A stretch of 64,000 nucleotides of DNA from Methylobacterium jeotgali (GTDB lineage: Bacteria; Pseudomonadota; Alphaproteobacteria; Rhizobiales; Beijerinckiaceae): contig NZ_BPQR01000031.1 of NCBI RefSeq assembly GCF_022179345.1, forward strand, positions 1 to 64,000, written 5' to 3'. The notes under the pieces were generated by a model. The model was not told the origin of the DNA and searched no databases. It was given only the letters and a program-made list of their open reading frames with translations. Positions 44,786 to 48,051 of the stretch are shown in pieces. Every line of letters begins with the position of its first letter. The first letter of the stretch is position 1. Made by a program: the position numbers and the translations under genes.

Positions 44786-46096
44786 TCAGTTGCCCTCGTC
44801 GCCGGGCTCGTAGACCTCGGGCATCGTGGACTGGGCGCTGGCGACGGGAGTCGGCGCCGAGATGGTCGAGGGCACGTTCACGCCGTCGCGCTTGTAGATG
44901 TCGTCGCGGAACTGCACGAGGCCGTCCGGGGTCGACCAGGCGGTGATGTAGGTCCAGTAGACCGGCACCGGGGTGCTGATGTTGGCGTCGACGCGCTTGC
45001 CGCTCTCGATCGCCTCCTCGACCTGCTGACGGCCCCAGCCGGGCGTGTCCTTGAGCAGCCAGGTGATGTACTCGCGCACGTTCTGCACGCGGACGCAGCC
45101 CGAGGAGATGAAGCGGAAGTCGTCGCCGAACACGCCCTTGGTGTTGGTGTCGTGCATGAACACCCCGTGCGGGTTGGGGATGTTGATGCGCACGATGCCC
45201 ATGGAGTTGAAGTCGGCGCCCGAGTCCTGCCGGTAGGTGTAGCGGGTGCCCTCGTCCGAGAACCAGTTCACCGACTTCGGCGAGACCTCGCCGGCACCCG
45301 AGAGGATGCGGATCTTGTTGTCGGTGAGGTAGTTCGGGTCCTTCTGCATCTTGGGGATGAGGTCCTTCTTCACGATGGAAGCGGGGACCGTCCAGGTCGG
45401 GTTGAAGTTGATCTGCGTCGCCTTGGTATTCATGATCGGCGACTGGCGGTCGATCTTGCCAACGCCGGCCGCGTGCAGGGTCACGACCTGACCGTTCTCG
45501 ACGGTCTGGACCAGGGCCGCGGGGATGTTGGTGATGACGAAGCGGTTGCCGAGGTTGCCCGAGTAGGAGCGCAGGCGCACCACGTTGATCTCGAGCTGGC
45601 GCAGCCGCACGTCGGCGGGCACATTCATGGCCTGCTGGGTGGCGGCGCTCATGGCGCCGGTCTGGCCGAGGCCGTGGCGGGCCTGGAAGCGCTTCACCGC
45701 GGCGGCGACGTAGGAATCGTAGACGCCGGAGGAACCGGCCACAGGGTCGAGATCGCCGGTCACGATCAGGCGCTGGCGCACGGCGTCGACCGCCGGGCCG
45801 CGGGAGCCGACGCGCAGGCGGTCGGCGCCAGAGACCTGCCGCCAGCCGCCGCGGGCGACGATGTCCTTGTAGCGCTCGGCCATCTGCTCGGTGGCCGCCA
45901 CGGTCTGCGGCGACAGGATCGGCGTCAGCGAGCGCTGCACCTGCATGCCGGTGGGGGCGGCGTAGTCCTGGGCCCACTCCGCCTGCGCGAAGCCGGCCTC
46001 GCGGGCGCCGGCGGGGACGGCGAAGGCGGCCGAGGCGAGCAGCGCAAGGCCGAGGGCGCCAAGGTTCGCGCGAAGGGTCGGTGCCAGGGTCAGCAT
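44786..46096 (-). CDS. L,D-transpeptidase (YkuD) with peptidoglycan-binding domain
   Basis: The 436-aa periplasmic protein has a signal peptide of about 31 residues (ending PAGA). A peptidoglycan-binding domain 1 follows (LRVGSRGPAVDAVRQRL to VKRFQARHGLGQTG, about 95-150). The YkuD catalytic domain has His in GVFMHDTNTKGVF and the nucleophile Cys334 in FISSGCVRVQN. It would make 3-3 crosslinks or attach proteins to peptidoglycan. It resembles the larger YcbB-like enzymes in domain order. Confidence 0.94.
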   Translation of the reverse strand: MLTLAPTLRANLGALGLALLASAAFAVPAGAREAGFAQAEWAQDYAAPTGMQVQRSLTPILSPQTVAATEQMAERYKDIVARGGWRQVSGADRLRVGSRGPAVDAVRQRLIVTGDLDPVAGSSGVYDSYVAAAVKRFQARHGLGQTGAMSAATQQAMNVPADVRLRQLEINVVRLRSYSGNLGNRFVITNIPAALVQTVENGQVVTLHAAGVGKIDRQSPIMNTKATQINFNPTWTVPASIVKKDLIPKMQKDPNYLTDNKIRILSGAGEVSPKSVNWFSDEGTRYTYRQDSGADFNSMGIVRINIPNPHGVFMHDTNTKGVFGDDFRFISSGCVRVQNVREYITWLLKDTPGWGRQQVEEAIESGKRVDANISTPVPVYWTYITAWSTPDGLVQFRDDIYKRDGVNVPSTISAPTPVASAQSTMPEVYEPGDEGN

Positions 46097-46327
46097 CTAC
46101 GGGCTCTGTCAGATGTCGGGACGCCGGAACCGCGAGACCTCACGCAGAACCGGACGGCCCGAGGGTGTCGCGGTAGCGTTAAGAACCCATGTCCTCCGGG
46201 CCAGAATATGGCGCCCTCGTGCGGCGGCGCACATGGCGGCTCGATTGGCCGCCGCGGCGACGCGATCCGTCCGCCGGATCGGCCCCCGTCTGGCGCGGCC
46301 GGCGGCGATCCCCTATGGCTGGCGGCC

Positions 46328-46690
46328 ATGCTTCACGCCGCGACGGCACGGCTGCGCCTGCGCGCGATCATCTCGGTGATCGCGCTCTACGCGCTCGTGC
46401 TCCAGGCCCTGGCCGGGAGCCTGTCGCCTGCGCCCGCCACCGAGACGGCGGCGATCTGCGCTCCGGGCGTGGCGGCACAGGATCGGGGTGGTCCGGACCG
46501 GCCGGAGCCGCATCCCGCCTGCTGCCTCCTGCATCACGCCGGTCACGCGTGCGACCTGCCGGCTCCGGCGGCGGCCGCCCTCCGCGTCCCGCGAGCGGCG
46601 GACCGAACGGTCTCGATCTCCCCGCCGCGAGAGGCCGGTCGCGAGCCCGCCGGTCCGACCGGCCGCCCTCGGGGACCGCCCCTCGCCTGA
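46328..46690 (+). CDS. DUF2946-like small protein
   Basis: The 120-aa product has an N-terminal hydrophobic segment (AIISVIALYALVLQALAG) acting as signal or anchor. A His/Cys-rich stretch follows (HPACCLLHHAGHACDLP), then a Pro/Arg-rich tail. This is the pattern of the DUF2946 family often found beside copper-handling genes. The Cys/His cluster could bind copper on the periplasmic side. It precedes the YcnI-PCuAC fusion by about 70 nt on the same strand. Confidence 0.7.
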   Translation: MLHAATARLRLRAIISVIALYALVLQALAGSLSPAPATETAAICAPGVAAQDRGGPDRPEPHPACCLLHHAGHACDLPAPAAAALRVPRAADRTVSISPPREAGREPAGPTGRPRGPPLA

Positions 46691-46763
46691 CCGATTCGAC
46701 AGCCGGCACGACGGGCCCTCGGCCCGGCGGCCTCGTCCGCTCGCTCAGCTTCAGGACCGTTCC

Positions 46764-47717
46764 ATGCCCACCCGATCCCCGGCCGCCCTCCTCGCGGCGC
46801 TCGCCCTCGCCGCCGCCCCTGGCCTCGCCCGGGCCCACGCCAACCTCGAACGCAAGGAGGCGAACCCCGACAGCGCCTATCGCGGCGTCGTCCAGATCAT
46901 GCATGGCTGCGAGGGCACGCCGACGACCCGCGTCACCGTCACGATTCCCGAGGGCGTGGTCGGCGCCAAGCCGATGCCGAAGCCGGGCTGGCAGGTCGCC
47001 GTCACGAGGGGCGCCTACGCCCGGCCCTATCAGAGCTTCCACGGCACGGTGTCGGAGGGCGTGAAGACCATTATCTGGAGCGGCGGCAGCCTCCCGGACG
47101 ATCAGATCGACGAGTTCACCTTCTTCGCCCGCGTCAGCGACGCCTTCGCGCCGGGTGCCACGATTCATTTCCCCATCGAGCAGGATTGCGAGAAGGGCAG
47201 CTATCGCTGGACGGAGGTTCCGGCGGCGGGCCAGGACCCGCGGGAATTGAAATCGCCCGCTCCCGCCGTCCGCGTGGTCGCCGCCGAGGGAAAGACCGCT
47301 CAGGCGCCCGCGAAGGCCGGCACCGTTACCGTGACGGCGCCCTGGATCCGGGCAACGCCGGCCGGCGCCAAGGTCGCCGGCGGATACTTCACCGCGTCGA
47401 ACAGCGGACGGGAGCCGGACAAGCTCCTCTCGGCCACAGCCGAGATCGCCGGCCGCGTCTCGATCCATTCCATGAGCATCGAGAACGGGGTGATGCGCAT
47501 GGCGCCCGTCGAGAACGGCTTGGCCATCAAGAGCGGCGAGGCCGCGGAGCTGAAGCCCGGCGGGTATCACCTGATGCTCGAGGACCTGAAGCGTCCGCCC
47601 AAGGCCGGCGAGAGCGTGAAGGGCAGCGTCACCTTCGAGCGCGCCGGCACGGTGCCGGTAGTGTTCGAGGTGCGCGGCACGGCGCCGGCCGCCGCGTCCG
47701 GCGGCCACCAGCACTGA
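46764..47717 (+). CDS. Periplasmic copper chaperone: YcnI (DUF1775) fused to PCuAC
   Basis: The 317-aa secreted protein has a signal peptide ending ARA at residue 24, so the mature chain would start with His25 (HANLERKEANP), as in YcnI proteins that bind Cu(II) with an N-terminal histidine brace. The DUF1775 domain runs to about residue 155, with Trp149 in YRWTEV. After a linker, the PCuAC domain has the copper motif H235-x10-M246-x22-H269-x-M271 (IHSMSIENGVMRM and GGYHLML). The C-terminus ends GGHQH. It would capture and pass copper for cytochrome oxidase assembly. The two domains are usually separate proteins. Confidence 0.92.
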   Translation: MPTRSPAALLAALALAAAPGLARAHANLERKEANPDSAYRGVVQIMHGCEGTPTTRVTVTIPEGVVGAKPMPKPGWQVAVTRGAYARPYQSFHGTVSEGVKTIIWSGGSLPDDQIDEFTFFARVSDAFAPGATIHFPIEQDCEKGSYRWTEVPAAGQDPRELKSPAPAVRVVAAEGKTAQAPAKAGTVTVTAPWIRATPAGAKVAGGYFTASNSGREPDKLLSATAEIAGRVSIHSMSIENGVMRMAPVENGLAIKSGEAAELKPGGYHLMLEDLKRPPKAGESVKGSVTFERAGTVPVVFEVRGTAPAAASGGHQH

Positions 47718-47723
47718 GGACGC

Positions 47724-47755
47724 GGACGTCCTCCAAGTTCGCGGGGAGGACGTCC
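47724..47755. terminator. Bidirectional hairpin between convergent genes
   Basis: GGACGTCCTCC (47724-47734) pairs with GGAGGACGTCC (47745-47755) over a 10-nt loop. It lies 6 nt after the copper chaperone stop and just before the stop of the opposing small gene. There is no U-run. Confidence 0.7.
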
Positions 47756-47761
47756 CGACGC

Positions 47762-47962
47762 TCAGGCGTCCCGGCGCGCCCGCGGATAGCGATAGGCGAC
47801 CCGGGCCAGGAGCAGCGCGCCGCCGAACTGCGCCAGCCCGTTCTCGCCGAGATCGCTCGGGGCGATCTGCATCTGGACGACGGCGCGGGTCAGCGCGTTG
47901 AAGGCGATGACGCCCATGCAGAAGGCGGCGGCGGCGAAGAGAGCGGCAACGAAATCGGGCAT
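47762..47962 (-). CDS. Small membrane protein of unknown function
   Basis: The 66-aa product starts MPDFVAALFAAAAFCMGVIA and has a hydrophobic N-terminal helix, an acidic middle (QIAPSDLGENGL), a second mildly hydrophobic stretch (QFGGALLLARVAYRY) and a basic tail (PRARRDA). The longer open frame upstream is antisense-like. I do not recognise the family. It shares its strand with the upstream hydrolase-like gene. Confidence 0.5.
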   Translation of the reverse strand: MPDFVAALFAAAAFCMGVIAFNALTRAVVQMQIAPSDLGENGLAQFGGALLLARVAYRYPRARRDA

Positions 47963-48051
47963 GGCGCGAATCCCGTCCAATCGACGGAACAAGCTTAGCA
48001 AGGGCCGCGCCAGAGCGTAGCCGCCGAAGGGATCAGGGGCGGCAGACGGGA

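Follow-up and report, generated by a model that had tools for sequence, protein, structure and literature searches.

In Methylobacterium jeotgali, the gene of a fused YcnI-PCuAC copper protein (P0001; 46764-47717, plus strand) is preceded by a small upstream open reading frame (uORF; P0002; 46328-46690, plus strand, 120 aa), and we consider it likely, at a probability of about 0.65, that the pair is a copper-chaperone unit regulated by the uORF, which would act as a nascent copper-sensing arrest peptide that opens a hairpin at the Shine-Dalgarno (SD) region of the fusion gene. Positions are those of the window, that is, the whole stretch of 64,000 nucleotides that was analyzed. The stop codon of the uORF and the start codon of the fusion gene are separated by 73 nt on the same strand, and the two genes probably form a two-gene unit, because they are located between minus-strand genes on both sides: a divergent L,D-transpeptidase-like gene upstream (44786-46096, minus strand; Pfam) and a hydrolase-like gene downstream (minus strand; Pfam). 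A search of Rfam with positions 46000-48000 at E values up to 1 gave no match, and NCBIfam gave none for either protein.

The small gene is probably a copper switch and not a partner handing on copper, the role that an earlier, sequence-only reading had given it, and this shift changes the first thing to test. The fusion architecture and the RAPP/RGPP class of uORFs are already known; the stop-codon stem and the constrained RGPP codons are possibly new at this locus.

The YcnI-PCuAC fusion and its distribution

The fusion gene encodes 317 aa in one open frame, in which Pfam recognizes both DUF1775, the YcnI domain (residues 25-171; E 1.2e-39; 136.4 bits against a cut-off of 25; 46836-47276, plus strand), and PCuAC (residues 190-299; E 1.1e-34; 119 bits against a cut-off of 29.4; 47331-47660, plus strand), so that the two copper modules are indeed joined in one chain, as had been read from the sequence. 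The paper on the DUF1775 family cited here as PMC8424229 is presumably that of Damle et al. (2021). An AlphaFold2 model of the protein (mean pLDDT 93.6, pTM 0.71) agrees with the domain assignment: its YcnI half matches the YcnI structure 7me6 (Z 17.0, rmsd 1.9, 125 aligned) and its PCuAC half matches the PCuAC protein AccA, 9yah (Z 20.1, rmsd 1.3, 121 aligned). Further PDB matches (integrins, pilins and the like) were taken as general beta-sandwich resemblance. We consider the product to be probably a two-domain periplasmic copper protein. In the genome of this strain, DUF1775 and PCuAC each gave a single match, and both are in this protein; no other YcnI or PCuAC protein was found there.

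The two modules had been described as usually separate. This holds for the family, about 90% of which is single-domain according to the accessible text of PMC8424229, but not for the genus: a full-length fusion match was obtained in 85 of the 111 genomes of Methylobacterium (with Methylorubrum) that make up our genus set, which also answers how widespread the fusion is. The remaining genomes gave four split matches, one match cut at a contig end, and separate PCuAC matches only (21 genomes, e.g., G020, G052, and G081). The 90 genus loci used below comprise 86 full-length matches, from the 85 genomes, and the four split ones. Both domain motifs lie in one frame at 89 of these 90 loci, the other being frame-shifted, and an assembly artefact as the source of the fusion is ruled out on this ground.

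In a sample of 385 genomes of the class, for which at most five candidates were scored per genome, full-length matches were found in at least five genomes outside the genus among the rows listed, which is a floor for fusions of other genera. A search of named genomes gave 36 single-ORF fusions among the 80 loci listed, 11 of them from Methylobacterium and 25 from others, including Microvirga, Devosia, Nitratireductor, Mesorhizobium, Rhizobium, Roseivivax, and one Comamonadaceae bin among the matches listed; this search is not a survey, because it used two peptide patterns, covers the matches listed, and drew 11 of the 36 listed fusions from the genus itself. A DUF1775-PCuAC fusion has been noted for a subset of proteobacterial DUF1775 proteins, with the suggestion that the domains may act in concert (PMC8424229, accessible part, in which none of the fusions is characterized). 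The architecture is thus already in print and is not unusual in the genus; the present protein has the same two domains as the published fusions and a conserved N-terminal His.

Predicted copper sites of the fusion protein

Residues 1-24 (46764-46835, plus strand) resemble a signal peptide that ends in ARA before His25, and cleavage at A24|H25, which would make His25 the first residue of the mature protein, is probable. The residue before the mature His is Ala at 82, Ser at 7, and Gly at 1 of the 90 genus loci, and the residue at -3 is Ala at 87, Ser at 2, and Pro at 1; this AxA|H arrangement is a conserved signal-peptidase pattern, and a mature N-terminus at His25, as predicted by the sequence-only reading, is probable.

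The published copper site of Bacillus subtilis YcnI consists of His27, Glu50, and Trp137 (PMC8424229, accessible part). The fusion lacks the Glu50 ligand of this monohistidine brace and has an invariant HGC (His47-Gly48-Cys49) instead, present at 90 of 90 genus loci. Numbered on the full-length protein, H25, H47, G48, C49, C142, and W149 do not vary among 53 aligned sequences. In a weak profile alignment (E 0.011), Gly48 falls at the Glu50 column and His47 one residue earlier; the profile alignment with 7me6 stops short of Trp137, W149 being invariant in the 53 sequences. The earlier proposal of a YcnI-type histidine-brace site at His25 is supported as regards the conserved His, but the Glu ligand of the published site is missing, and the label "monohistidine brace" is barred for this protein. 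Its membership of the YcnI family is unaffected, because many proteobacterial members lack Glu50, and most of the sequences with an incomplete ligand set come from proteobacteria as far as the available sections of PMC8424229 report.

It is conceivable, though we hold it only tentatively, that His47 of the HGC takes the place of Glu50 and forms a two-histidine brace with His25. The invariance of H25, H47, G48, C49, and W149 in the 53 sequences is in its favor, as is the alignment of Gly48 with Glu50, which puts His47 immediately ahead of that column; but His47 may point away from the site, and B. subtilis YcnI aligns only weakly (E 0.011). A brace of this kind is compatible with every explanation of the uORF considered below (arrest, Rho, relay, or the CutF sign). 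The HGC in place of the Glu ligand bears on how the proteobacterial YcnI site binds copper. A disulfide close to the copper site might link Cys49 (46908-46910) and Cys142 (47187-47189), which are both invariant; in the alignment with B. subtilis YcnI, Cys49 faces a gap, and Cys142 is beyond the aligned part.

The copper motif of PCuAC proteins has the form H-x10-M-x(21-22)-H-x-M. It is intact here as H235-x10-M246-x22-H269-x-M271, the domain also containing M237 and M244, and H-x10-M-x(20-24)-H-x-M was found at 89 of the 90 genus loci; the claim that the second domain keeps a His/Met motif of the Cu(I) type is supported. The C-terminal GGHQH tail (47700-47714, plus strand) belongs to the low-confidence part of the model, and a His occurs within the last six residues of the fusion at 89 of the 90 genus loci.

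The uORF peptide

The uORF encodes a hydrophobic N-terminal segment, Cys residues at 44, 65, 66, and 75 only, His residues at 62, 69, 70, and 73, and an end of RGPP-Leu-Ala-stop, with RGPP (46670-46681, plus strand) at residues 115-118 of 120, two residues from the stop. The Cys65-Cys66 doublet (CC; 46520-46525, plus strand) lies 48 residues ahead of RGPP, at the place where CruR has CXXC; neither CXXC nor CXXXC is present in the peptide. The sequence-only reading called this neighbor a Cys/His-rich DUF2946 gene. The gene and its Cys/His-rich composition were found as described, but the label is weak, the DUF2946 (PF11162) score of 14.0 bits being under the cut-off of 23.7. A DUF2946 search of the strain's own genome at E values up to 1 did not return the peptide and gave no match over the cut-off; among 34 aligned uORFs, 20, this one included, matched DUF2946 at E values up to 1, the best at 9e-07.

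A directly upstream ORF ending in R[AG]P[PL]-x-x-stop was found at 84 of the 90 genus fusion loci, with RGPP in 63, RAPP in 20, and RAPL in 1. Of the 3,514 other stop-to-stop frames with at least 60 codons at these loci, 13 have such an end, and 12 of these 13 resemble uORFs of the same kind; an RGPP ending by chance is ruled out by this control. At four of the six loci without a direct uORF (L019, L029, L033, and L034), the uORF is located one gene further upstream, and the gene between is a frame of 729-730 codons that encodes a TonB-dependent receptor in the two scanned with Pfam. At L013 the RGPP end is in a frame lacking the conserved N-terminal part, probably as a result of a frameshift, and at L035 no uORF was found in the sequence examined. 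In the search of named genomes, a loose pattern finds such a uORF at 34 of the 36 listed fusions and at 23 of the 25 listed ones outside the genus; a strict pattern finds it at 32 of the 36.

The CC doublet occurs in 84 of 84 genus uORFs, 47-50 residues ahead of the motif, and CXXC in the last 110 residues of none of them; CXXC was seen in many uORFs of other genera in the search of named genomes. C44, C65, C66, R115, P117, and P118 are invariant in 24 aligned uORF sequences, and dN/dS over the last 70 codons was 0.14-0.70 in 13 chosen pairs of relatives, values which indicate purifying selection on the peptide. GGT encodes the Gly of RGPP in 42 of 63 uORFs but accounts for 211 of the 3,347 Gly codons in the fusion genes, and this excess implies that the RGPP codons are constrained beyond the amino acid. 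Direct pairing between the RGPP codons (GGTCC) and the SD (GGACC) averaged 4.64 bp, against 4.30 bp for mismatched loci and 3.74 bp for shuffled sequences, and the longest run in the window is 3 bp; such pairing is a weak lead that is not relied on here.

A second R(A/G)PP-like copy was observed a few residues before the terminal one in 75 of 84 genus uORFs by a loose pattern (e.g., L014, L044, and L063); in the window, the degenerate sequence PAGPTG stands in its place. CCxxxC, and hence CXXXC, is present in some genus uORFs (e.g., L072 and L077) and in Microvirga uORFs.

The predicted leader hairpin

The gap between the uORF and the fusion gene, 73 nt in the window, is 41-62 nt at 73 of 84 genus loci; start codons for gap lengths and for the stems in named genomes were assigned by simple scoring, and that of L130, at least, seems incorrect. 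In the genus, the uORF stop codon TGA and its neighbors can pair with a TCA-containing segment before the ribosome-binding site of the fusion gene, the chosen TCA starting 18-22 nt before the start codon at 63 of the 83 loci with any site. A stop-codon stem of at least 5 bp was found at 75 of 84 genus loci, compared with 7.3 when the gaps were shuffled and searched in the same way, the best of several TCA sites being taken in data and null alike. All nulls shuffle single bases of the gap, with 300 shuffles per locus for stem counts (genus and named-genome sets), 30 for expected pairs, and one for SD accessibility (genus only). In the named-genome set, the stem of at least 5 bp was present at 23 of 40 loci against a null of 4.7; 11 of these 40 loci are from the genus and overlap the first set, and ten loci with YcnI not directly downstream had been dropped beforehand.

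RNAalifold predicted the stop-codon stem unprompted in 45 aligned leaders. The named stem is paired in 94.5% of cells, against at most 50.5% at offsets of one to three columns, and changes on both sides occur in 20 cells, against 6.0 in shuffles. Two of five measures fail in these 45 leaders: neither the number of pairs with change on both sides (360 of 500 shuffles as high) nor that of further pair types (158 of 500 as high) is above the shuffles, because four of the five stem pairs hardly vary. Over all loci with a site, the loop-side pair next to the stop codon is C-G in 25, G-C in 22, A-T in 18, T-A in 4, and non-Watson-Crick in 14; the first pair on the outer side is C-G in 62, G-C in 15, and other in 6; and the second outer pair is C-G in 29, T-A in 16, and other in 38, that is, 38 of 83 rows are non-Watson-Crick there. 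With mismatched rows left out, Watson-Crick types switched on the protein tree at least 8, 2, and 4 times at the three pairs; tree-based sign tests on independent pairs were not significant, being underpowered with too few pairs.

The expected number of pairs between the uORF tail and the SD region is 11.57 in the 84 genus loci against 2.41 in shuffles, with 81 loci above the null mean. Other genera contributed 29 loci, 23 with a fusion and 6 with an unfused YcnI gene; here the expected number is 8.02 and that of the shuffles 1.89, with 22 loci above the null and 7 not. SD accessibility in the genus was 0.39 with the tail free (null 0.51) and 0.51 with the tail occluded (null 0.52), and SD opening rose on tail occlusion at 65 of 84 loci (null, 44 of 84). 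At the level of sequence, then, a predicted covarying stop-codon hairpin is present in the relatives.

In the fold of the window's own leader, the 5' arm (46685-46690, plus strand), which contains the uORF stop codon, pairs with TCAGC (46745-46749, plus strand), located a few bases 5' of the SD-like AGGA of the fusion gene (46753-46756, plus strand), with pair probabilities of 0.44-0.79. Expected tail-SD pairs are 5.35 against 2.97 in shuffles (a fraction of 0.27 of 30 shuffles as high), and AGGA is not opened by tail occlusion (0.29 and 0.26). The window's hairpin is among the weaker ones, and the case for the hairpin therefore rests on the relatives.

Comparison with CruR and CutF

CruR, the product of a DUF2946 uORF in Bordetella pertussis, is a nascent regulator (Roy et al., 2022; PMC9426467, accessible text), and CutF of Rhodobacter capsulatus, likewise of the DUF2946 family, is a nascent copper sensor acting in cis, with a stem-loop that shields the downstream SD (PMC9973294, accessible text). 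In the parts of these two papers that are accessible, arrest goes with expression in both systems, copper releasing CruR and holding CutF. The arrest of CruR was shown in vitro, the ribosome holding the two RAPP Pro codons in its P and A sites (PMC12992588, EMBO J 2025), and the available sections of the same paper report that RGPP gave the most stable arrest among RAPP-like motifs in the contexts tested, and that uORFs of the RAPP/RGPP type are enriched upstream of YcnI and PCuAC genes.

Like CruR, the present peptide is encoded by a small ORF heading a copper operon and has R(A/G)PP near its stop, with 48 residues between the Cys motif and the arrest motif (45 in CruR). It differs from CruR in having CC instead of CXXC, RGPP instead of RAPP, a following gap of 73 instead of 162 nt, a stop-codon stem by the SD in the relatives, and a score below the DUF2946 cut-off. 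Because it is below the Pfam cut-off and has CC instead of CXXC, we do not file it as a DUF2946/CruR member, though it most likely works like one. With CutF it shares the short gap, a Cys motif, and a proline-rich end, and a stem by the downstream SD is strong in relatives and weak in the window's own leader; it has no CXXXC, and the downstream gene encodes a chaperone fusion and not a multicopper oxidase. Set beside the features listed for CutF-like proteins in the accessible text of PMC9973294, the peptide has 120 aa, PP at 117-118, a gap of 73 nt, and, at the place of a signal peptide, a hydrophobic N-terminus.

The authors of PMC9973294 sought intergenic RNA motifs behind cutF-like genes, with results that are partly in supplements. 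The accessible main text of PMC12992588 does not contain the words Methylobacterium, tandem, hairpin, stem-loop, stop codon, or Shine-Dalgarno. Neither a stop-codon stem nor a tandem R-x-P-P for YcnI-type loci was found by word search in the accessible text of the closest papers, nor was the CC form seen there; the wider literature was searched under gene names and generic terms. Copper acts on CruR and CutF in opposite directions, and the conserved locus described here has features of both in a tractable genus, so that the control of a stalled ribosome by a nascent copper site should be directly testable.

Proposed mode of regulation

In our preferred explanation, the uORF (46328-46690) would encode an arrest peptide that senses copper while nascent, in the manner of CruR and CutF. 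The ribosome would stall at RGPP, two codons ahead of the stop; with the Pro codons at its P and A sites it would reach approximately to the stop codon, so that the stem would stay open. When free, the uORF tail and stop codon would pair with the sequence flanking the SD of the fusion gene. Arrest would thus let the YcnI-PCuAC fusion be translated, release of arrest would close it, and copper at the CC/His cluster, 48 residues before RGPP, would set arrest or release. The expected sign is expression of the fusion at low copper, as with CruR, a sign that we favor since copper uptake is suggested both by the products and by the receptor genes next to some copies. The fusion may then take up periplasmic Cu(II) through the H25 site and keep Cu(I) in the PCuAC site, to serve the assembly of cuproenzymes. 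In this explanation we infer arrest, copper binding, the sign of the response, the role of the window's own hairpin, and interdomain transfer. A more specific form of it, which we put somewhat short of an even chance, is a combined peptide-RNA switch, in which an RGPP arrest peptide with a CC/His site has its own stop and tail hairpinned to the SD and the stalled ribosome opens the gene, joining arrest of the CruR type with gating of the CutF type across Methylobacterium and, more loosely, in other genera.

The relay role proposed by the sequence-only reading does not stand well. A mature DUF2946 protein acting as a periplasmic Cys/His copper carrier and partner of the fusion would suit the export-like N-terminus, the Cys/His-rich composition, and the position on the same strand 73 nt upstream, but we judge it very improbable, because the C-terminal RGPP, two residues from the stop, is conserved and because CruR and CutF act as nascent sensors. 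The invariant residues of the peptide include this R-x-P-P at a fixed distance from the stop, the RGPP codons are constrained at the nucleotide level, and neither CruR nor CutF was detected in mature form in the published work (PMC9426467; PMC9973294), CutF acting in cis. The peptide could also act wholly in the manner of CruR, that is, by Rho-dependent termination between the genes, copper relieving the arrest so that Rho acts and the hairpin being incidental. CruR also ends in a motif of this kind and regulates a TonB-dependent transporter (PMC9426467, accessible text), which recalls the four genus loci with a 729-730-codon frame between uORF and fusion, a TonB-dependent receptor in the two scanned; however, the intergenic region of CruR, 162 nt, is longer than the 73 nt here and the 41-62 nt at 73 of 84 genus loci, and a covarying stop-codon stem by the SD fits translational control better, so that we consider termination as the sole mode unlikely, although the Rho and translational modes can coexist.

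The opposite sign, known from CutF, is likewise doubtful. In that case, copper would enhance the arrest and the fusion would be switched on at high copper as a detoxification chaperone. The short gap and the SD-masking stem do resemble cutF-cutO (PMC9973294, accessible text), and a CXXXC lies within the CCxxxC of some genus uORFs (e.g., L072 and L077) and those of Microvirga. On the other hand, YcnI has been linked with the uptake of copper by B. subtilis, and PCuAC with the assembly of oxidases, and RGPP-type motifs of other peptides arrest without a metal ligand (PMC12992588, available sections).

Related frames at other loci

At seven loci (L042, L046, L065, L066, L070, L071, and L079), an extra frame on the same strand ending in PRAPP...ARAPPxx-stop was observed 445-487 nt past the fusion stop, and the same type of frame lies about 1.7 kb past the fusion at L090 and L091; these loci may have a second gene controlled by an arrest peptide behind the fusion. 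A uORF with CC and a PRAPP end was also seen about 0.7 kb before an unfused YcnI gene at ten loci (L157, L162, L166, L167, L168, L170, L172, L178, L179, and L182), nine of them from Mesorhizobium; the gene between is perhaps that of a PCuAC protein, that is, the same parts in another order.
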